The position numbers and the translations under genes were made by a program. Positions 768 to 13,790 of a stretch of 44,363 bases of DNA are shown here, piece after piece. The DNA lies in assembly GCA_946629885.1 (NCBI GenBank), contig CAMOYI010000006.1:1-44363 (forward strand), in the 5' to 3' direction. Positions within the stretch are counted from its first letter, which is position 1; every line of letters begins with the position of its first letter. This DNA comes from an uncultured Mycoplasmatota bacterium (lineage in GTDB: Bacteria; Bacillota_I; Bacilli_A; RF39; UBA660). Below the pieces are notes generated by a model, which was not told the DNA's origin, did no database searches, and was given only the letters and a program-made list of their open reading frames with translations.

Positions 768-807
768 ACAAAAGAAAAAACAGATATTTTTAAAACAAAA
801 TCTGTTT
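768..807 (-). terminator. Terminator of the Nudix gene
   Basis: Minus-strand stem AAACAGAT (807-800) pairs with ATCTGTTT (785-778), followed by a T-rich run. The loop contains the Nudix stop codon region. Confidence 0.65.
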
Positions 808-1269
808 CTTTTTAACGTTCTCAATTAAAAACTTGCAAGCCTTAGTAACCACTGAAGAAGCCATTATTTCTTCATATGTCATAAAAAACAGTCCATCACA
901 TTTATCTGGTTCCATTATTTTTAACTTACCACCTTTATATTCGCCATAGTATATAATAAAGGTCCAGTTGATAAGATTTTTTTTGACATGCATTATGCCA
1001 ATAGAGTTACTAATATCGATAAGTGCCTCTGTACCTATTTCTTCTTTTAATTCTCTAATAATTGCTTCTTTGAATGAGTTGTCTGTTTTTTCTACTTTTC
1101 CACCGATTTCTTCAAGTAGGCCGATCTCATCTCTTGCTTTTGCCCCCCTTTTTTGAAGTAATATTAATCCATTAGAATCTTCAATATGTATAATTACTCC
1201 CAATTGTGTATTATCTTTTATAGTTATTTCTGATGGAGTTATTTCATGGTCAAGTGCTATGTACTTCAT
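790..1269 (-). CDS. Nudix (MutT-like) hydrolase
   Basis: 159 aa. The Nudix box runs from GGKVEKTDNSFKEA to IIRELKEEIG, giving the G-x5-E-x7-R-E-L-x-E-E-x-G pattern with the metal-binding Glu residues intact. The upstream GVIIHIEDSNGLILLQKRG strand is typical of the fold. Nudix enzymes cleave nucleoside diphosphates linked to another group, for house-cleaning or nucleotide-sugar turnover; the substrate cannot be read from sequence. The start ATG at 1269 has a GGTGA binding site just upstream. It is transcribed divergently from the ATPase gene at 1438. Confidence 0.9.
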   Translation of the reverse strand: MKYIALDHEITPSEITIKDNTQLGVIIHIEDSNGLILLQKRGAKARDEIGLLEEIGGKVEKTDNSFKEAIIRELKEEIGTEALIDISNSIGIMHVKKNLINWTFIIYYGEYKGGKLKIMEPDKCDGLFFMTYEEIMASSVVTKACKFLIENVKKKQILF

Positions 1270-1404: not shown

Positions 1405-1410
1405 TATAAT
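1405..1410 (+). promoter_or_regulatory. -10 box before the HerA-like ATPase gene
   Basis: TATAAT at 1405-1410, followed by GAGGATGG as ribosome binding site (1422-1429). No convincing -35 box was found. Between this and the divergent Nudix promoter the sequence is AT-rich with nothing further recognised. Confidence 0.5.
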
Positions 1411-1437
1411 ATACTTAAATTGAGGATGGTATAGTGT

Positions 1438-3309
1438 ATGAAGTCATTTCGTGAAATATATTTAAATAGTAAATTCGTACCTAAAGAAGACTGGCAAGAA
1501 TTAATTAAAACTGTCTCTACTTATAATGGAACTTTTAAAAAATGGAAAATAGTCATTACGAACGATAAAAATAAGATACAGTTTTTTACGGAAACAAAAT
1601 GTAGTTTACCTGCCACAATAAATAACCTGACTTCATTTATCTTGAAAGAAAAAGAAAAAATAGATAAAATGCCAAAAGTGACTTTTTCTATACCATTTAC
1701 ATCTTTTAAACATGAGTACAACTTAATAGATATAATTAACCTATGTGAAGTAAGGAATAAAGGCGAATTCACTGCAATGACAATCAGTATTAAACCTCGT
1801 ACCAACGGTTTATTTAAAACTAAGATATTTTTTTACTTAACTAAAGATGTCAAAAATAAAAAATATAAAATGTTATTTACTAATCCTATAAATCTTTTGT
1901 CGATAGATTTTGATGGTAATAAAAGGTATTTTTATAAAGGAACACCAAAGTATTTAGATATCAACAAGGCCTTACATTTACTAAATACTGATAGTGCTTC
2001 ATCTATTTTAAAAGTCGATACTTTCCCATATTTACAAGGAGACTTTTACTTAAATCAAAACAACTATTCTTTCAATAAGCATTCTATCGTTATGGGATCT
2101 AGTGGAACTGGTAAATCTAAATTTATTAGTTTACTAATTCATAACATATATAAGAATATCAATTTAAAACAACAGTATAAAGTTGTAGTAATAGATCCAC
2201 ATGCCGCATTGGAAAATGATATCGGTGGTATCGGTAAAGTAATCGATTTTAAGTCTAGAAGAAATAGTATCGATTTATTTTCGAATAGTACTGATGATAT
2301 TATATCGAATACTGAACTACTAATGGAACTATTTAAGTCAATCATAGGATCTCAATTTAATTCGAAGTTGGAAAGGGTTCTTAGACATTCTATCAGTTTA
2401 CTATTAACTAATAAAGATTTTAGTTTCACGTCATTAAGAAAACTTCTTTTGGACATGGAATATAGAAATAACTTAGTTAAAGAACTAACTGATAAATTGA
2501 ATTCCAGCGTTGTAGAATTTTTCTTATCAGACTTCAATGAACTTAAAACAAAGTCTTATGGTGAAGCGATTTCTCCGATAATTGGTTTTATTGATGAAAT
2601 GGAAATGATACCAGTATTCAATGGAGATGCTTCTAGTAATACCATAAAAGATACTATACATGATAATTTTTTAACGATCTTCTCTTTAGATAGGACAAAA
2701 CTAGGAGATAAAATTACTAAGACGATTTCAGGACTTATAATGCAACAGATACTTACTCTTGTTCAAAGTGCAAGGATGAATGAACACATCATATTTATAG
2801 TCGATGAGGTTGCAGTAGTCGAAAGTCCAATATTATCGAGATTCCTATCAGAAGCGAGAAAATATAATCTATCTTTGATGCTTGCTGGGCAGTACTTTAA
2901 TCAAATATCAGACGAACTAAAAGACTCTATATTCGCAAATGTCGTAAATTATTATATATTTAGAGTATCGATGGCTGATGCTCAAGTGCTAGTTAATAAC
3001 TTCGATATGAAAGTGCCACTCGATGACACTAAAGAACGTAAAGTAAAAATATTATCAGAACTCAACAATAGGGAATGTATAGTTAGAATTGATTCCAAGG
3101 ATGTATTACTACCTGCATTTAAAGCTAAGACAATGGATTATACGAGTATTCCAAGGGTAGATGAAGAAGTATTCGATTTAGATGAAGTCAAACCAAATGT
3201 TATAAAAGAACAAGAAATTAAATTTGATATAGGAACGAGCATTAACTTAAAAGATATTTTAATAAATACATCTTCTAGTAGAAAGGTAGTGGGGAAAGAT
3301 GGACGATAG
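1438..3309 (+). CDS. HerA/VirB4-like P-loop ATPase (possible DNA or protein translocase)
   Basis: 623 aa. Walker A GSSGTGKS at residues 220-227; Walker B strand HIIFIVDEVAV around 450-459 with Asp456-Glu457; then SRFLSEARKYNLSLMLAGQY and a region around SIFANVVNYYIFRVSMADAQVL. This is the arrangement of HerA/TraG/VirB4-type ATPases (DUF87-like), which form hexameric motors. The N-terminal ~200 residues, rich in predicted beta strand, are not recognised. No transmembrane helix is seen. The last 11 bases overlap the next gene, which suggests translational coupling. There is no nuclease (NurA), relaxase or other type IV secretion gene beside it, so neither DNA repair nor conjugation is supported by context. 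Similar orphan ATPases are, from memory, common in CPR bacteria. Confidence 0.75.
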   Translation: MKSFREIYLNSKFVPKEDWQELIKTVSTYNGTFKKWKIVITNDKNKIQFFTETKCSLPATINNLTSFILKEKEKIDKMPKVTFSIPFTSFKHEYNLIDIINLCEVRNKGEFTAMTISIKPRTNGLFKTKIFFYLTKDVKNKKYKMLFTNPINLLSIDFDGNKRYFYKGTPKYLDINKALHLLNTDSASSILKVDTFPYLQGDFYLNQNNYSFNKHSIVMGSSGTGKSKFISLLIHNIYKNINLKQQYKVVVIDPHAALENDIGGIGKVIDFKSRRNSIDLFSNSTDDIISNTELLMELFKSIIGSQFNSKLERVLRHSISLLLTNKDFSFTSLRKLLLDMEYRNNLVKELTDKLNSSVVEFFLSDFNELKTKSYGEAISPIIGFIDEMEMIPVFNGDASSNTIKDTIHDNFLTIFSLDRTKLGDKITKTISGLIMQQILTLVQSARMNEHIIFIVDEVAVVESPILSRFLSEARKYNLSLMLAGQYFNQISDELKDSIFANVVNYYIFRVSMADAQVLVNNFDMKVPLDDTKERKVKILSELNNRECIVRIDSKDVLLPAFKAKTMDYTSIPRVDEEVFDLDEVKPNVIKEQEIKFDIGTSINLKDILINTSSSRKVVGKDGR

Positions 3310-3997
3310 TAAAGCATTAGAAATAGTTAATAAAATTTTTGTAGCGGTATTTGGAAAGCAAAATAGTTTTACACTAGAAGAACTTCTAGACAAGTTTGCA
3401 TTCGATGTTAAACTTCCAAAGCAAGTAATGGATTCAACTACAAATGAAATTACTTGGGCAGATTCTATCAATAGTGGTAGATATATAAAGTTTTCCAATA
3501 TGGAAAAACGCGATAAGACAACTGGCTGGATGTTAGAGAAAAAACAAATATCTAATCTACAAGACTTAATTGATATCTGGAATTCTGTTAATCTCACTGC
3601 TACTGAGCGTGTCAATGATTCCATTGATGTAGTTAAAAGTGATACTATATATAGAAGTGAAAAAATATATAGATGTTCTGATACATCAGACTCTAAAAAT
3701 ATGGTTTTCTGCGATTCTTGTGCTAATTGCGAGTTTGTGTTAGCATCTCAAAGATCTAGTATGAGTAACTTCTGTATAAGAGTTGATGATTCGACTAATT
3801 GTAGTAACTCATATGGTGTACAATACTCTAATAAAGTATCCAATTCTTTATTCATACAAGACTGTTTTGATGTCAACGAATGCATGTTTTGTTCGCATCT
3901 AGCAAATAAGAAATATTGTATAGCAAACATGCAGTTTGAAGAAAAAGAGTATTTTGAAATAAAGAAATTAATAATTGAATGGATCTTAAATTCATAA
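3299..3997 (+). CDS. Cysteine-rich solenoid-like protein of unknown function
   Basis: 232 aa. The N-terminal half (1-115) is a mixed helical region. From residue ~120 the protein has short repeats with Ser/Asn/Asp/Cys at regular spacing (SKNMVFCDSCANCEF, SMSNFCIRV, NKVSNSLFIQDCF, NECMFCSHL) and ten cysteines at 126, 138, 141, 144, 159, 168, 189, 195, 198 and 207. The pattern resembles a right-handed beta-helix with stacked Asn/Cys ladders. The ending NKKYCIANMQFEEKEYFEIKKLI resembles the KKYCIxNKQYxxEEYE ending I recall from Cys-rich solenoid proteins of CPR bacteria and archaea. It starts inside the end of the ATPase gene, so the two are probably co-expressed. Metal or FeS binding is possible but not shown. 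Confidence 0.7.
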   Translation: MDDSKALEIVNKIFVAVFGKQNSFTLEELLDKFAFDVKLPKQVMDSTTNEITWADSINSGRYIKFSNMEKRDKTTGWMLEKKQISNLQDLIDIWNSVNLTATERVNDSIDVVKSDTIYRSEKIYRCSDTSDSKNMVFCDSCANCEFVLASQRSSMSNFCIRVDDSTNCSNSYGVQYSNKVSNSLFIQDCFDVNECMFCSHLANKKYCIANMQFEEKEYFEIKKLIIEWILNS

Positions 3998-4001
3998 AAT
4001 A

Positions 4002-4030
4002 AAGTTTAATAGGAGGTTATTAAACTTTTT
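4002..4030 (+). terminator. Terminator after the ATPase/solenoid operon
   Basis: Perfect 9-bp stem AAGTTTAAT (4002-4010) / ATTAAACTT (4019-4027), followed by T residues. The 8-nt loop AGGAGGTT is itself a perfect Shine-Dalgarno sequence. Confidence 0.75.
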
Positions 4031-4031
4031 A

Positions 4032-4060
4032 TTGACAAGAAAAACCTTTATTTGTAGTAT
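4032..4060 (+). promoter_or_regulatory. Strong consensus promoter of the 4087 gene
   Basis: TTGACA (4032-4037), 17-nt spacer, TAGTAT (4055-4060). Transcription would begin near 4067, which places the upstream ATG at 4066 at the very edge of the transcript and favours the start at 4087. Confidence 0.75.
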
Positions 4061-4086
4061 ATAGCATGAAAGAAGGTATTGCGCAA

Positions 4087-5094
4087 ATGGAAAATATAAG
4101 TAGTGGAAATAATGGACATTTTGAAATTGGTTACTTAAAGCATGGTACGCCCATAATAGTTAAAATAACTAATGGTAATAATGTAAGAAAAACCGAAGTT
4201 TTTTCGGAGATTAATCCTGCATATTCAAAAAGTGCTGAGCCAATGTTAGATGGGTTTTATAGTAATAATGTTAAGCCGTATTTTGATGGAGACACTCAAG
4301 AAGATAAAGACATAAGAAAGGCTTGTCTCCAACAGCAATTGGCTCCACAGGAGGATTGGCCAGTATATCACATGTGGCAGAAAGAATCGATGCTAGAGCA
4401 CAGAGACGTATATAATGGTTTTGAAGGATTTAAAAGATTTGTTACAGATCGCGAAGTAGAACTTAATGATAAATCTACCCTTCGCTTTCTAGAACATTTA
4501 GGTATTACTGAAGAAGATTGGAAAGAATATGAAGCAGGTGTGCCTGTTGATTTTGCAGCAATTGCAGAGGCAATTCAATATAGAAAAAAAGGTAAACTTT
4601 TACCAGAAAATGATAATTATGCGGTTGGGTATGATTGGACTAATCATCCTGTATTGGTAGCTAAAGAAGATAATGGCGACTATGTTCCATTAAATAATAT
4701 TTGCGGTGATATTTGGTCGCCGTTTGCATTGGTGCCAAATACACAATTTGCGAATACGGATCGCGTCCTCTCATCTATTTTTTGGTTCCCTACTTATTTA
4801 TATACCAGATACACTAGTACTGGAGGGCTTGTTGCACCTGGTGATTTGCACTTAATTCCAACGTCACAGCATTTCTACGATATGTATTTTAAAAGATCAG
4901 GCCTTAACATAGATAAAGAGTTATGTAAAAAAATATTATTAGCATGTGCTTTTTCTGAGGAAGAGATTCAAAATGCTATTCTATACTTAAAACATTCTCC
5001 TAAGTTTATTGTTAGAAGCCTTTATCAGAAAGATCTTAAAAAAAGGTTACAACTACAAGGCAATCAAAAGCACATGACACCGGTAGATAAATAA
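4087..5094 (+). CDS. Hypothetical protein, no recognised family
   Basis: 335 aa, soluble, no signal peptide or membrane segment. An in-frame ATG exists at 4066, but the predicted transcription start falls there, and the AGAAGG at 4071-4076 sits 10 nt before the ATG at 4087, so 4087 is preferred. Visible features are many aromatic residues (WPVYHMW, IFWFPTYLYTRY), a short helical segment with ITEEDWKEYEAGVPVDFAAIAEAI, and a basic Lys-rich end. I do not recognise any enzyme motif. Codon choice looks somewhat different from its neighbours (more GTT, GCA and TTG), which could mean transfer but was not measured. It is monocistronic, between its own promoter and terminator. Confidence 0.65.
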   Translation: MENISSGNNGHFEIGYLKHGTPIIVKITNGNNVRKTEVFSEINPAYSKSAEPMLDGFYSNNVKPYFDGDTQEDKDIRKACLQQQLAPQEDWPVYHMWQKESMLEHRDVYNGFEGFKRFVTDREVELNDKSTLRFLEHLGITEEDWKEYEAGVPVDFAAIAEAIQYRKKGKLLPENDNYAVGYDWTNHPVLVAKEDNGDYVPLNNICGDIWSPFALVPNTQFANTDRVLSSIFWFPTYLYTRYTSTGGLVAPGDLHLIPTSQHFYDMYFKRSGLNIDKELCKKILLACAFSEEEIQNAILYLKHSPKFIVRSLYQKDLKKRLQLQGNQKHMTPVDK

Positions 5095-6586: not shown

Positions 6587-6604
6587 AATAATTATTGGCT
6601 TTTT
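6577..6604 (+). terminator. Terminator of the deacetylase gene
   Basis: AGCCAAT (6577-6583) pairs with ATTGGCT (6594-6600), followed by TTTT. The stop codon lies in the loop. Confidence 0.7.
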
Positions 6605-6607
6605 AAT

Positions 6608-6635
6608 TTGACTTTTTTATATATTTATATATAAT
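6608..6635 (+). promoter_or_regulatory. Promoter of the 6664 gene
   Basis: TTGACT (6608-6613), 16-nt spacer, TATAAT (6630-6635). The predicted transcription start near 6642 supports the ATG at 6664 over the ATG at 6646. Confidence 0.7.
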
Positions 6636-6663
6636 ATGTAAATCAATGAAAGAGGGGGAAAAA

Positions 6664-8307
6664 ATGGCAAATATGTCCAATGGATCATTCAATAAATACG
6701 TGGACTTTGTAATTCATAACACAAGTGAATTTGATCCAGTGCGAAGAGCACTAGGTCAGGGTAATACACAGCCTGAAATCGAATCGTTTGCAATTTTTAA
6801 TGATACTCTTATAACTGCATATAAGAAAAAGGTTTTATTAGATGACGATATTGTCTCACTAGTTAGAGAATTGATTCTTCGAATTGTTGAATCGGGATAT
6901 ACCGAAAGATTAGTTGTTAGTTATACGATAATTATACAAAGGGAATATCCCACAGCACGCCAACTAGCTGCTTTAGATAGTGAGTTAATGTACTATGGGC
7001 TCGATAAAACAATTTTATCTATTTATATGAAAAAAATGAAATCTAATGTCAGACATTTAAATGGTATTTTTGCTAATGCTAATAATTATTTTGCTCCTAT
7101 TGCAGCAGCTGTTAAAAATGAAATTGGAAGAAGAGAAACAATTTTAAGGAGCCAATCGTCAGAATTACCATCACAAATAGATATAGAAGAAACCAACAAG
7201 CTAGCAACAACTTACTACTTTTTAAGTCACCAGGAAGATATTTATAGAAAGAGCATTTATATTAAAGATTTGTCAATTTTTAATCCAATTTTACAAATGT
7301 ATTCTGAAGATGAAGAATTATTAACAAATTTTATAAGTTGGTTTATTTCTCTTCTAAGTGACGTTGTCGATTATCTTTTTTCTGCAACAGAAGCAAATAA
7401 AAGAAGTAATAACCATGATTATGCTGATAATGAAATCAGAGCCGATAAGACTTCGAAAGAAAAAAAAGTTATAGGCTATTATGAATTTTCTAAAGACTAT
7501 CCAGATTCATATCTGGACCAACATAATCGAAAGCTTGAACAAATAGTGAATCATGTTTTTGAATCTTACAGATTTGTACCATTTGACACAGATGCAAATA
7601 ATAATCACCCTGAAGCTTTAACAAAATTGCAAGAACTAAGTAAGGCAAAAGAGGTTGTTAAAAGTAGTGAAAATTTAATAGATGACCGTAAAAGTAGCTT
7701 AGAAGCAATACGATGCCTACTAATTGAGTTAGGATTGGATGAAAAATTTGCTAATGTGTATTTTAAAAAAATGATGGATAGAATTATACCTGTGCCAAAA
7801 GCAAAGCCAGTAACTGTTGAACCAGATAGACAAAATTATAAAGACCAAATAAAAAGAGTGAGAAATGCTGAAACAACAATTGCTTCTATAGATAGCAAAC
7901 CTTCACCTGTTAGTATGGAAGATATGGAAAAATACATAAGCGCTAATGATGTGTTAAAAGAAGAAGTATCATCATTTTTAACAAAACAGATAGAAGCATT
8001 AATAAGAAATATAGATAACTTCTCCTGTATTGCTCAATTAAAGGATATATATAATAAATATAAAGATTTATTCGTATACTACTATAATAATTTGGAAACT
8101 AATGATGAAGATATACTTTTTTTTGAATTGGTGATTCGGGATATTGACAATATACCGGATAGTTTGGAATTGTATAGTAATAGAGAATTGATGGACATGC
8201 ACTCTTGTCTTATACCAGATTTAAAAAAATATCTTTTGCAAGCTTTATATAACATTAAACCTAGTGACATATATGTATTATTTAAATCGTTACAAAAACA
8301 ATTATAA
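6664..8307 (+). CDS. Large helical hypothetical protein
   Basis: 547 aa, no signal peptide and no clear membrane helix. Composition suggests almost wholly alpha-helical structure, with a charged Lys/Glu-rich middle (about 255-420) and a helical C-terminus ending SDIYVLFKSLQKQL. No catalytic motif is recognised. The start at 6664 is chosen because AGAGGGGG (6651-6658) is a strong binding site placed 5 nt before it; an in-frame ATG at 6646 lies upstream of that site. It stands alone between a promoter and a terminator, directly before the stand-alone AAA+ gene. Whether the two work together is a guess. Confidence 0.7.
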   Translation: MANMSNGSFNKYVDFVIHNTSEFDPVRRALGQGNTQPEIESFAIFNDTLITAYKKKVLLDDDIVSLVRELILRIVESGYTERLVVSYTIIIQREYPTARQLAALDSELMYYGLDKTILSIYMKKMKSNVRHLNGIFANANNYFAPIAAAVKNEIGRRETILRSQSSELPSQIDIEETNKLATTYYFLSHQEDIYRKSIYIKDLSIFNPILQMYSEDEELLTNFISWFISLLSDVVDYLFSATEANKRSNNHDYADNEIRADKTSKEKKVIGYYEFSKDYPDSYLDQHNRKLEQIVNHVFESYRFVPFDTDANNNHPEALTKLQELSKAKEVVKSSENLIDDRKSSLEAIRCLLIELGLDEKFANVYFKKMMDRIIPVPKAKPVTVEPDRQNYKDQIKRVRNAETTIASIDSKPSPVSMEDMEKYISANDVLKEEVSSFLTKQIEALIRNIDNFSCIAQLKDIYNKYKDLFVYYYNNLETNDEDILFFELVIRDIDNIPDSLELYSNRELMDMHSCLIPDLKKYLLQALYNIKPSDIYVLFKSLQKQL

Positions 8308-8478: not shown

Positions 8479-8494
8479 AATATTGGTGAGAATT

Positions 8495-9412
8495 ATGAAT
8501 GAGACTTTTAGTGTTCTTGAACGTTATGCTGAAGATTTAACTCAAAAAGAATATATAACAGATCCCGCTATTGCAAGGGATGATGTAATTAAAGAGATTA
8601 TACTAACTCTTTTGACTCCTGAGAAGGGAGCATTGCTAGTTGGTAAGCCTGGTATTGGTAAGACAGCAGTTGTAGAAGGGCTTGCATACCGCATACAAAA
8701 AGGAATGGTACCTAATGCTCTTTTAGGTTGGAAATTATATAAAATAAATATTACTAGCCTTTTGGGAAGTGCTGGAGATACAAATGACAGTAAAATAGAA
8801 GCATTGATTAAAGAACTTAAAAATTTAGATAAAACTATTATTTTTATAGATGAAGTACACTTATTAGTAAGTAGAAATGAATCGAATAGTATCGATTTTG
8901 CCAATTTATTAAAACCAGCATTAGATAGAGGTACAATTAAAATGATTGGTGCAACAACTACTGAAGAATACGAAACATATGTATTGCGCGATAGAGCATT
9001 TGTAAGACGATTCCAAAAAGTAGATGTATTTGAAACAGATGGCCCAACCACTGTAAGAATACTTATGGGTACACTGCCAAAGCTGGAAAAACAAATAGGG
9101 GTCAAGTTAGACTATACGCCATTTATTGTGGAAAGAATTATGAAATTTATAGTTGAAATGACCAGTGAGTATAAAAGGGTATATGAGGTATCTAGTAGAT
9201 ATCCAGATATATGCATAACCATAATTGCAAATGCACTTAGCTATGCATTATTCGAAAATTTAGATAAAGCAAGTATCAGACACGTCTACAAAGCAGTGGT
9301 AAATGCTAAAAACATCTACCCGGATGCCAAAGCAAAGGCTATCGAACAATTTAAAGAAGAATTTAACGACTTAATAAGAGAAGAAAATATTCTTTTGGAA
9401 AACTTAGTTTAG
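8495..9412 (+). CDS. Stand-alone ClpA/ClpB D1-like AAA+ ATPase
   Basis: 305 aa. Walker A GKPGIGKT at 50-57, Walker B TIIFIDE at 114-120, sensor-1 region GATTTEEYE at 152-160, arginine-finger region [11 protein letters not shown] at 164-174. All closely follow the first nucleotide-binding domain of ClpB/ClpC. Missing are the Clp N-domain, the middle domain, the second ATPase domain, any ClpP-binding loop, and the KYRG pore-1 loop: the matching stretch reads [14 protein letters not shown]. It is therefore unlikely to thread proteins and may act as an ATP-driven switch or adaptor. The start at 8495 has GGTGAG 4-9 nt upstream. Partner unknown. Confidence 0.85.
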
Positions 9413-12035: not shown

Positions 12036-12526
12036 AAGTATCCGTTTTTAACTTCTAGTGATTCATTTATAATAATAAATGCACTATTATCATATGTATC
12101 TATTAGACGCTTTAATTTTTTTAAGTTTTTCTTGTCGATTTCAACCAATATAAATTCTTTAGATTTATCTTTAACTATCGTACTTGCGCCATATCCACTT
12201 CTTTTTAGACATTGTCCCAAATTTACTGTTTTCTTAGTAAATATTAAGATAGTTAAATTTCCCTTTATTAAGTATTTATTTACAAGACCACCCATATAAG
12301 TTCCAACGGCGTATCCAAGTGCATAACTTACTACTACTAAAAAACTAATATTTCTCATCGTTATAGTTTCTCTTGCAACATAAAACCAAATTAGTAGTTC
12401 TATAAATGCAAGAAAACAAGCGATAAAGTTTTTCTGTTTTATCAGGTATACTGTTCTTATAGAACCTATACTGACATCTAAAATCCTAGCGAAAAAGACT
12501 TCTAAACACAATAATAACGTTTCCAT
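12032..12526 (-). CDS. UPF0316 membrane protein (DUF5698/DUF2179)
   Basis: 164 aa. Three N-terminal membrane helices containing ILDVSIGSIRTVYLIKQKNFIACFLAF in two pieces, the signature of UPF0316 proteins, followed by a small soluble DUF2179 domain (about 100-160). Function unknown; DUF2179 also occurs on YitT-type membrane proteins. No good ribosome binding site precedes the ATG at 12526. It lies downstream of the femX-like gene but a terminator stands between, so it may have its own weak promoter. Confidence 0.85.
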   Translation of the reverse strand: METLLLCLEVFFARILDVSIGSIRTVYLIKQKNFIACFLAFIELLIWFYVARETITMRNISFLVVVSYALGYAVGTYMGGLVNKYLIKGNLTILIFTKKTVNLGQCLKRSGYGASTIVKDKSKEFILVEIDKKNLKKLKRLIDTYDNSAFIIINESLEVKNGYF

Positions 12527-12542
12527 ATTATTAGTATGTTAG

Positions 12543-12582
12543 ATATTAAAAAAAATAAACAAAAGATCAGCCTCTTTTGTTT
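12543..12582 (-). terminator. Terminator of the femX-like gene
   Basis: Minus strand: AAACAAAAGA (12582-12573) pairs with TCTTTTGTTT (12566-12557), followed by a run of Ts. It covers the stop codon of the femX-like gene. Confidence 0.8.
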
Positions 12583-13790
12583 AATTCTTGTGCAAGTTTA
12601 CCACTCGACAATAAATATTTATAAAGTTTATCTCTAAATACTAGGTCATATTCACCGATATATTCGAAGACCATTGGATTAAATCCCAATTTAAATCTAT
12701 TCAATCCTTTATAAGGGTTATTACCCTTAAAATCACCGGTAATGCCGTTTAAATCTAAGAATTCGAAGTCGTCTTTATATCGTTCTATTATTGCATTGTA
12801 TAAGAAATAGTTTGCATTTAATGTAGAAAGTTTCTTGTCATATCCACTTTCCACTATGTGTACTCTATTATTATATTTGATTACTAGTGCACCTGCGACT
12901 ACAGCATGATTGTCATTTCTCAATCCGTCAGTTGCAAAGATAATTTCATTTTTTAAAATACATAGTTTGCTATCGCTCGCACTCTTAGAATTGATATCTT
13001 CCTTTCTGTGACTTCTATGTAGTATCTCATTTAATAGTGCATTGCGATTCAACTCTTCGTCATATAGTTCTTGTCCCTTTTTTATAAACTGTTCATAATC
13101 TATTTTTACTAGCAGTAATTCTATTTTGTCTTTCCCAAAGATATTGTATAAATTCTTATAATAAGTAAATGGTTTATCTGTATCTAATATACTATGTAGG
13201 TTTGCTAAATCATCATCCGTACCAACTTCTAAATATAGTCCTTTTCTTCTTGAATTGTTTATCTTATTTCTATTTGCCTTTGAATATAATTTAAAATCTA
13301 CTTTTCTTAGGTCTATATACGCATTAAATCTTGGTTCAACTGCTTCAAAAAATAAATTGTCCTTAAGTTTCCTAAAACCATATTTAGGAAAATTCTGTTT
13401 CAACTTTAAATTAGCGTTTGGATAGTATTCGTATGTCTTATTGTTATATTCTGCAGTTACAATCTCAGGATTAACTTTTATAAAGACAACTCCTTTTTTT
13501 TCATAATAATTTTTTAGTTCGTTAGTAAACGTAGTCAACAAGTCTATATCGTAATAATTTATTAAAAACCCTTTAGGAGCATATCCATAATATGTATTAT
13601 GACCAATCTTCTTAATTCCAATCAATGAAGCTGCTTTAATGGTGCTACCATCGACAAGTCCAATATATTCATAACTATACCCGTTTTCTCCCATGAATCT
13701 GGCATATTCTACTGTTTGCATATAGTTTTTTAATGGATGATTATTTGCAAATGAAGTAAACTCTTCAATAGTTAATTCTTTTATACACAT
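12567..13790 (-). CDS. FemAB/FemX-family peptidoglycan interpeptide bridge aminoacyltransferase
   Basis: 407 aa. The N-terminus (FTSFANNHPLKNYMQTVEYARFMGENG) and the segment YYGYAPKGFLINYYD match FemABX proteins, which contain two GNAT-like domains. A helical arm around 230-260 and the C-terminal part (HAVVAGALVIKYNNRVH, FLDLNGITGDF, NPYKGLNRFKLGF) complete the family pattern. These enzymes use aminoacyl-tRNA to add amino acids to the lysine side chain of lipid II, acting on the inner membrane face. The amino acid added cannot be told. ATG 13790 with GGGAG upstream; the SD lies between AACTC and GAGTT, a possible small hairpin. Confidence 0.9.
   Translation of the reverse strand: MCIKELTIEEFTSFANNHPLKNYMQTVEYARFMGENGYSYEYIGLVDGSTIKAASLIGIKKIGHNTYYGYAPKGFLINYYDIDLLTTFTNELKNYYEKKGVVFIKVNPEIVTAEYNNKTYEYYPNANLKLKQNFPKYGFRKLKDNLFFEAVEPRFNAYIDLRKVDFKLYSKANRNKINNSRRKGLYLEVGTDDDLANLHSILDTDKPFTYYKNLYNIFGKDKIELLLVKIDYEQFIKKGQELYDEELNRNALLNEILHRSHRKEDINSKSASDSKLCILKNEIIFATDGLRNDNHAVVAGALVIKYNNRVHIVESGYDKKLSTLNANYFLYNAIIERYKDDFEFLDLNGITGDFKGNNPYKGLNRFKLGFNPMVFEYIGEYDLVFRDKLYKYLLSSGKLAQELNKRG

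Follow-up and report, generated by a model that had tools for sequence, protein, structure and literature searches.

Operons in which a motor ATPase is encoded together with a partner protein are a known kind of arrangement. To our knowledge every described two-gene system of the HerA type pairs the motor with an enzyme, and we know of no precedent for a mechanism in which a motor works with a solenoid protein. The locus that we consider here lies in a stretch of 44,363 nucleotides from an uncultured Mycoplasmatota bacterium (contig CAMOYI010000006.1 of assembly GCA_946629885.1), referred to below as the window, and coordinates are those of its forward strand unless (-) is given. Gene A (1438-3309, +) encodes a 623-residue soluble motor ATPase that is assigned to the HerA/VirB4/TrwB superfamily from Pfam profiles, Foldseek matches and the lack of a hydrophobic segment, and gene B (3299-3997, +) is an open reading frame for a 232-residue Cys-rich protein. 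Both frames were found on the same strand at the positions given in a preliminary description of this DNA, with the 11-nt overlap reported there.

The closest described systems each share part of this arrangement. HerA-DUF4297 and Sir2-HerA (Foldseek chains 8xau, 8ziq and 8sub) are also two-gene operons of a HerA-superfamily ATPase and a dedicated partner, but A is only ∼13% identical to their motors and is not nearest to HerA alone, a third, Rob-like gene is usually present and a defence-island context is lacking. The partner, moreover, is neither Sir2, DUF4297 nor another known effector, B having no family match in Pfam, NCBIfam or PADLOC and bearing no signature of a nuclease, an NADase or another effector. 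The HerA central domain of HerA-NurA is present in A as DUF87, NurA itself is not found next door and B, the sole constant partner, has no nuclease match. VirB4 and TrwB (VirD4), the motors of type IV secretion, share with A a RecA core that carries a helical insertion (TM-score to target 0.62-0.65) and the TrwB_AAD_bind profile, whereas A is apparently soluble, shows 14% identity and is not encoded near membrane, relaxase or channel genes; the fold match to these motors is non-discriminating as HerA fits also, and no relaxase, channel or pilus gene recurs in 93 neighborhoods. The C-terminal ATPase of DndH, from the Dnd phosphorothioate system, is a further fold match (7es4, E = 1.6e-12, TM-score to target 0.63), but with a different domain set and with no Dnd genes around A. 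Of the other genes of the MADS system none is recurrent, mad3 being seen in 2 of 126 flanking proteins. Finally, the upstream regulator R that is described below resembles Rob and STM3175 in having HTH_18 and Cass2/GyrI-like domains over its full length, that is, an AraC-type helix-turn-helix with a GyrI-like ligand domain, but it is tied to a motor ATPase rather than to an efflux pump and scores far below the RobA cut-off. Full-text literature searches, incomplete in coverage, returned no published description of an R-A-B module, and as far as we have found, what is new is B as partner, R as sensor and the restriction of a mobile form to one lineage.

Results and Discussion

The coupling of a HerA/VirB4-like ATPase to a Cys-rich, probably solenoid protein had been proposed from the window alone, with adjacency in other genomes as the means of checking it, and it is well supported by the genomes that we have compared. 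Of 93 distinct loci, 90 have A immediately 5' of B in the same orientation, the spacing ranging from -50 to +9 nt (median -4 nt over the 90 pairs); the three others are a contig edge (L113), a fragment with a truncated B and no A (L102) and a stand-alone B (L049). Among 98 relatives, strong A matches and full-length B coincide, side by side, in 10 genomes, and the 88 others have neither (Fisher 7e-14, one B fragment being ignored). The A-B pairing is real and not due to chance, and it forms the inseparable core of the cassette. The stand-alone B of L049 (genome G004, contig C32, 3229-3921, (-)) is a second paralogue, 51% identical and with no adjacent ATPase, in a genome that carries a full A-B pair besides. 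In L135 the ATPase is interrupted (∼6587-8000), and the decaying copies L135 and L102 are consistent with ongoing loss.

The family is restricted in its distribution. B is found in 41 of 386 genomes (∼10%), from 30 genera, of one uncultured gut Bacilli family, and 259 B loci were detected when species-representative genomes were scanned; the 80 of 259 relatives that were kept are metagenome-assembled genomes labeled mostly as uncultured gut Bacilli, Erysipelotrichaceae or Tenericutes, and in a few cases as Clostridia. In a profile search of 392 genomes sampled evenly across the phylum B was confined to this same family (2 genomes), and A beyond the window copy gave a single weak partial match, outside the family. 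An origin from phages or plasmids was rejected, since neither A nor B has a relative in viral contigs, and phages and plasmids likewise lack B. Matches to A in the phage and plasmid sets are distant and partial, the nearest plasmid proteins (∼25% identity) being annotated as T4SS or TraM-recognition. For the KKYCIxN motif of B a link to Cys-rich solenoid proteins of CPR bacteria (Patescibacteria) had been suggested; scans of viral contigs for the motif yielded no true homologue, and the single exact match (L256) lies on the strand opposite to the gene there and was set aside as chance.

The AlphaFold2 model of A (mean pLDDT 84.5) begins with an N-terminal α/β domain, continues into a RecA core that carries a helical insertion and ends, after a disordered linker, in a C-terminal helix. 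The N-terminal domain includes residues 1-146 (1438-1875; block pLDDT 78-92), and the core contains the Walker A sequence GSSGTGKS (residues 220-227, 2095-2118) and the Walker B residues DE (456-457, 2803-2808), which are intact, as had been noted, with G220, S222, G223, G225, K226, S227, D456 and E457 invariant in 44 homologues. An AAD-like helical insertion at residues 288-388 (2299-2601), assigned from the secondary structure of the model, may be comparable to the insertions of VirB4, TrwB and HerA. A variable, disordered linker (579-596) precedes the C-terminal tail (601-623, 3238-3306), which is seen from both conservation and the model and contains a conserved LKDIL..NSxSRK peptide; because a conserved C-terminal peptide behind a variable linker is a pattern typical of docking peptides, the tail is a candidate docking site for B. 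Neither A nor B has a hydrophobic stretch that would suggest a membrane helix.

A matches DUF87 (E = 3e-8, 34.4 bits versus a gathering score of 23.2) and TrwB_AAD_bind (7e-5, above cut-off), and both profiles match all 44 members of the A family, with TraG-D_C matching most of them. Foldseek ranks HerA first (8.8e-14), followed by the C-terminal domain of DndH (1.6e-12), TrwB (4e-11) and VirB4 (8e-11), and TM-scores to the target are highest for VirB4 (4ag5, 0.65), DndH (7es4, 0.63) and TrwB (1gl6, 0.62). In PADLOC, A gives matches to mad8 (9.5e-15) and to HerA models (4e-10). From the profiles, the fold matches and the neighborhood, A can be placed in the HerA/VirB4/TrwB superfamily but not in any of the systems that were tested. 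The expectation that it has no firm place in the HerA-NurA or conjugation clades and is without their usual partners is thus borne out, the placement being one of profiles, folds and neighborhoods rather than of a tree.

In B an N-terminal α/β domain (residues 1-105, 3299-3613; block pLDDT 85-96) is followed by a Cys/Ser/Asn ladder (106-212, 3614-3934) that is predicted, from AlphaFold2 and from periodicity analysis, to be a β-solenoid and that is confidently modeled only to about residue 137, with pLDDT of ∼62 beyond. There are exactly ten Cys residues, the number counted before (126, 138, 141, 144, 159, 168, 189, 195, 198 and 207), and all ten are at residue numbers divisible by 3. The period-3 signal of Cys in a profile of 58 sequences reaches a power of 13.7, larger than in all 500 shuffles (95% level 7.0), so that the ladder cannot be ascribed to chance. 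The hydrophobicity of the same profile is correlated at a lag of 12 residues (r = 0.45), as expected of a β-solenoid with 12-residue turns, with the strongest Fourier peak not significant (p = 0.12). All 93 B sequences contain a C-x2-C-x-H-x6-C motif (C195, C198, H200 and C207; 3881-3919), and this candidate site may bind metal. No structure similar to B was found in the PDB, by sequence or by fold, or among viral models; a left-handed β-helix of the carbonic-anhydrase type appeared as a very weak match (E 4-10) and was not counted as evidence.

Clustering of all neighboring genes yielded one further recurrent family near A-B, namely R. In 65 of 90 pairs R lies no more than four genes 5' of A, in 55 of them directly next to it, so that the description of a two-gene system has to be revised: most copies have a third gene, an upstream Rob-like regulator, which the window lacks. 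R contains an AraC-type HTH_18 domain (1e-15) with Cass2 (5e-10) and GyrI-like (3e-8) matches, and its best match over its length is RobA (RobA_TF, 2e-21), at 77 bits versus a model cut-off of 380. Of the 98 relatives, 7 of the 10 with A-B also carry a close R homologue (at least 53% identity), and the 88 that lack the pair carry none (Fisher 9e-9). In the window R is not next to A, and no homologue was found in the rest of that genome, where absence is uncertain since the assembly is ∼70% complete. The earlier statement that A-B has no known partner nearby holds for NurA, relaxase and restriction genes, with R as the partner that had been missed. R is missing from some 15 copies whose upstream DNA can be read, the window included, and is hence not indispensable. 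The GyrI-like domains of other bacteria are drug-binding and give protection from DNA-alkylating or gyrase-poisoning compounds (PMC5684135; PMC10414762). In three loci (L043, L044, L093) a nitroreductase-family gene is located between R and A, and in L101 a protein that by eye is similar to ISAs1-type transposases is encoded there (12277-13629, (-)).

A conserved element, AAACTGACAAAACTGATT-N-AAAAAGTCAGTTTTTT, is located between R and A, with a -10 sequence (TATACT/TATAAT) and GAGGTG after it. This R-A intergenic element, AAACTGAC..GTCAGTTTT, is a candidate site for R, and conservation is higher in its right arm than in its left. The element forms a hairpin with a run of T and can therefore terminate R. 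It adjoins A in L042 and L044 despite another gene between R and A, and it precedes the nitroreductase-A-B run in L043 and L093; in L042 (2450-6880) it is present twice, on either side of an inserted transglutaminase-like gene that separates R from A. We infer that the element doubles as a control site of the A-B promoter, for which there is no -35 consensus in the window; the element, which is also the terminator of R, is at most a candidate operator for R.

For the window pair a single shared promoter and terminator had been claimed. Both are plausible, although the case is weaker than was stated, as a consensus scan found neither: there is no -35/-10 promoter in the 168 nt 5' of A and no G+C-rich terminator was reported after B by the G+C-based scan. 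By eye, a -10-like TATACT (1410-1415) and GAGG (1422-1425), the ribosome-binding site of A, can be recognized at 1410-1425 (+), in agreement with the conserved sequence before A in the family. After B an A+T-rich inverted repeat, AAGTTTAATA-GGAGGT-TATTAAACTT and then TTTA (4002-4030, +), is a probable terminator; its 10-bp arms are perfect, T follows and a sister genome has the same. A promoter-like TTGACA-17-TAGTAT is located at 4032-4060, 5' of the gene that follows B, so that A-B looks like a separate transcription unit. That gene (∼4066-5094, +) is an orphan of 342 residues with no Pfam or PHROG match, and within the genus a single other genome carries it, likewise after A-B; a larger operon that includes it was rejected on the basis of this single other genome and of its own promoter-like site. 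Further downstream, a 553-residue orphan precedes a gene for a short AAA+ protein (8483-9412, +; 309 residues), which matches phrog_4871 (3e-52), a phage-type ATP-dependent protease family, over only one AAA module.

The three genes diverge together. Correlations of pairwise identities are 0.93 for A-B, 0.87 for R-A and 0.84 for R-B, with none of 2000 permutations as high, while R, A and B versus enolase give r of -0.15 to -0.05 and versus RNase R 0.06 to 0.17. The controls are these two housekeeping markers only, which are near neighbors on the chromosome here and are correlated with each other at r = 0.61. In some pairs of genomes A is ∼81-84% identical and enolase only 51-57%, and the opposite case is seen too. 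Because R, A and B co-diverge with one another and not with the markers, the module is taken to move from genome to genome as a unit, and we regard its linkage, co-divergence and mobility as secure. At the DNA level, homology between cassettes of different genomes extends from ∼28 nt before R, at its -10 box, to the stop codon of B, where it typically ends; the L079 and L149 cassettes share a left site, so that the sharp edge reflects in part fast-evolving intergenic DNA. A precise transposon with terminal repeats was not seen, and no empty insertion sites were found. The flanks are of ordinary mixed families (radical SAM, NUDIX, cyclophilin, UDG and others). NUDIX, uracil-DNA glycosylase, Ham1 and YfbR genes are mildly recurrent near the module, with no base rate, including in the window at 790-1269 (-).

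What the module does can be addressed only tentatively. The reading that we prefer, without holding it to be probable, is that R-A-B specifies a small-molecule-induced protective DNA-motor complex, a horizontally transferred module of uncultured gut Bacilli. The module would usually consist of three genes, with A and B as core. R would bind a small molecule and activate the A-B promoter, which lies immediately 3' of the R terminator, and A would form a ring-shaped, ATP-driven motor acting on DNA, both ring and substrate being suggested by fold and family. B would dock on A, probably on its C-terminal peptide, via the N-domain or the Cys-ladder solenoid, and may be a non-catalytic recognition or adaptor subunit with a Cys3-His metal site. 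The complex would protect conditionally, most likely by clearing or repairing DNA that is damaged or blocked by the small molecule of R. The Rob-type regulator points to small-molecule induction and the HerA-superfamily motor points to DNA, and the nitroreductase within the module fits a xenobiotic setting, albeit in a small sample of 3 genomes; a protective benefit and a DNA target are proposed for the module by analogy. The fully specified version, a mobile resistance or repair module whose Rob-type sensor induces a ring DNA motor with a metal-binding Cys-ladder solenoid adaptor, is possible, yet doubtful.

It is this context of regulator, motor and nitroreductase that leads us to favor an inducible protective complex over three other explanations. 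The nearest contender, rather unlikely in our estimation, is defence against phages or plasmids, with a HerA-like hexamer of A that scaffolds B or is gated by it and with R tuning expression. Two-gene HerA defence systems do exist (PMC11291478), the PADLOC scores of A to mad8 and HerA models are in keeping with such a role and the module is patchily distributed and moves horizontally. The effector that this explanation calls for has left no signature in B, however, and a Rob-type small-molecule regulator is not known to be typical of defence systems. Nor is a defence island around the module supported, since the 126 flanking genes belong mostly to housekeeping families, with scattered PADLOC hits.

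Improbable, to our mind, is a function in DNA uptake or transport, or as a remnant secretion or conjugation motor, in which a VirB4/TrwB-like A would be coupled through B to DNA or to a membrane channel. The TrwB_AAD_bind and TraG-D_C matches across the A family, the TM-scores to VirB4 and TrwB and the annotations of the nearest plasmid proteins would all be accounted for, but relaxase, VirB6/VirB8 and pilus genes are not recurrent near A-B, both proteins are devoid of membrane-helix-like segments and close relatives are absent from plasmids, phages and viral contigs. We consider least likely of all a selfish or addictive cassette, where motor and partner would serve the maintenance or movement of the cassette itself and not the host; movement as a unit with both limits sharp and no recognized transposase is what would be expected, but no recombinase, terminal repeats or target preference were found, the neighbors are ordinary and R, A and B are under strong sequence constraint.

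Concluding Remarks

The motor of this family is inseparable from a non-catalytic-looking, periodic Cys-ladder protein with an invariant Cys3-His motif, usually together with a small-molecule sensor. If the inducible protective reading is correct, the module of R, motor and solenoid would be a mobile resistance or repair module of these gut bacteria that has not been described before. The sensor R provides a handle, in that finding its ligand should reveal the purpose of the module.
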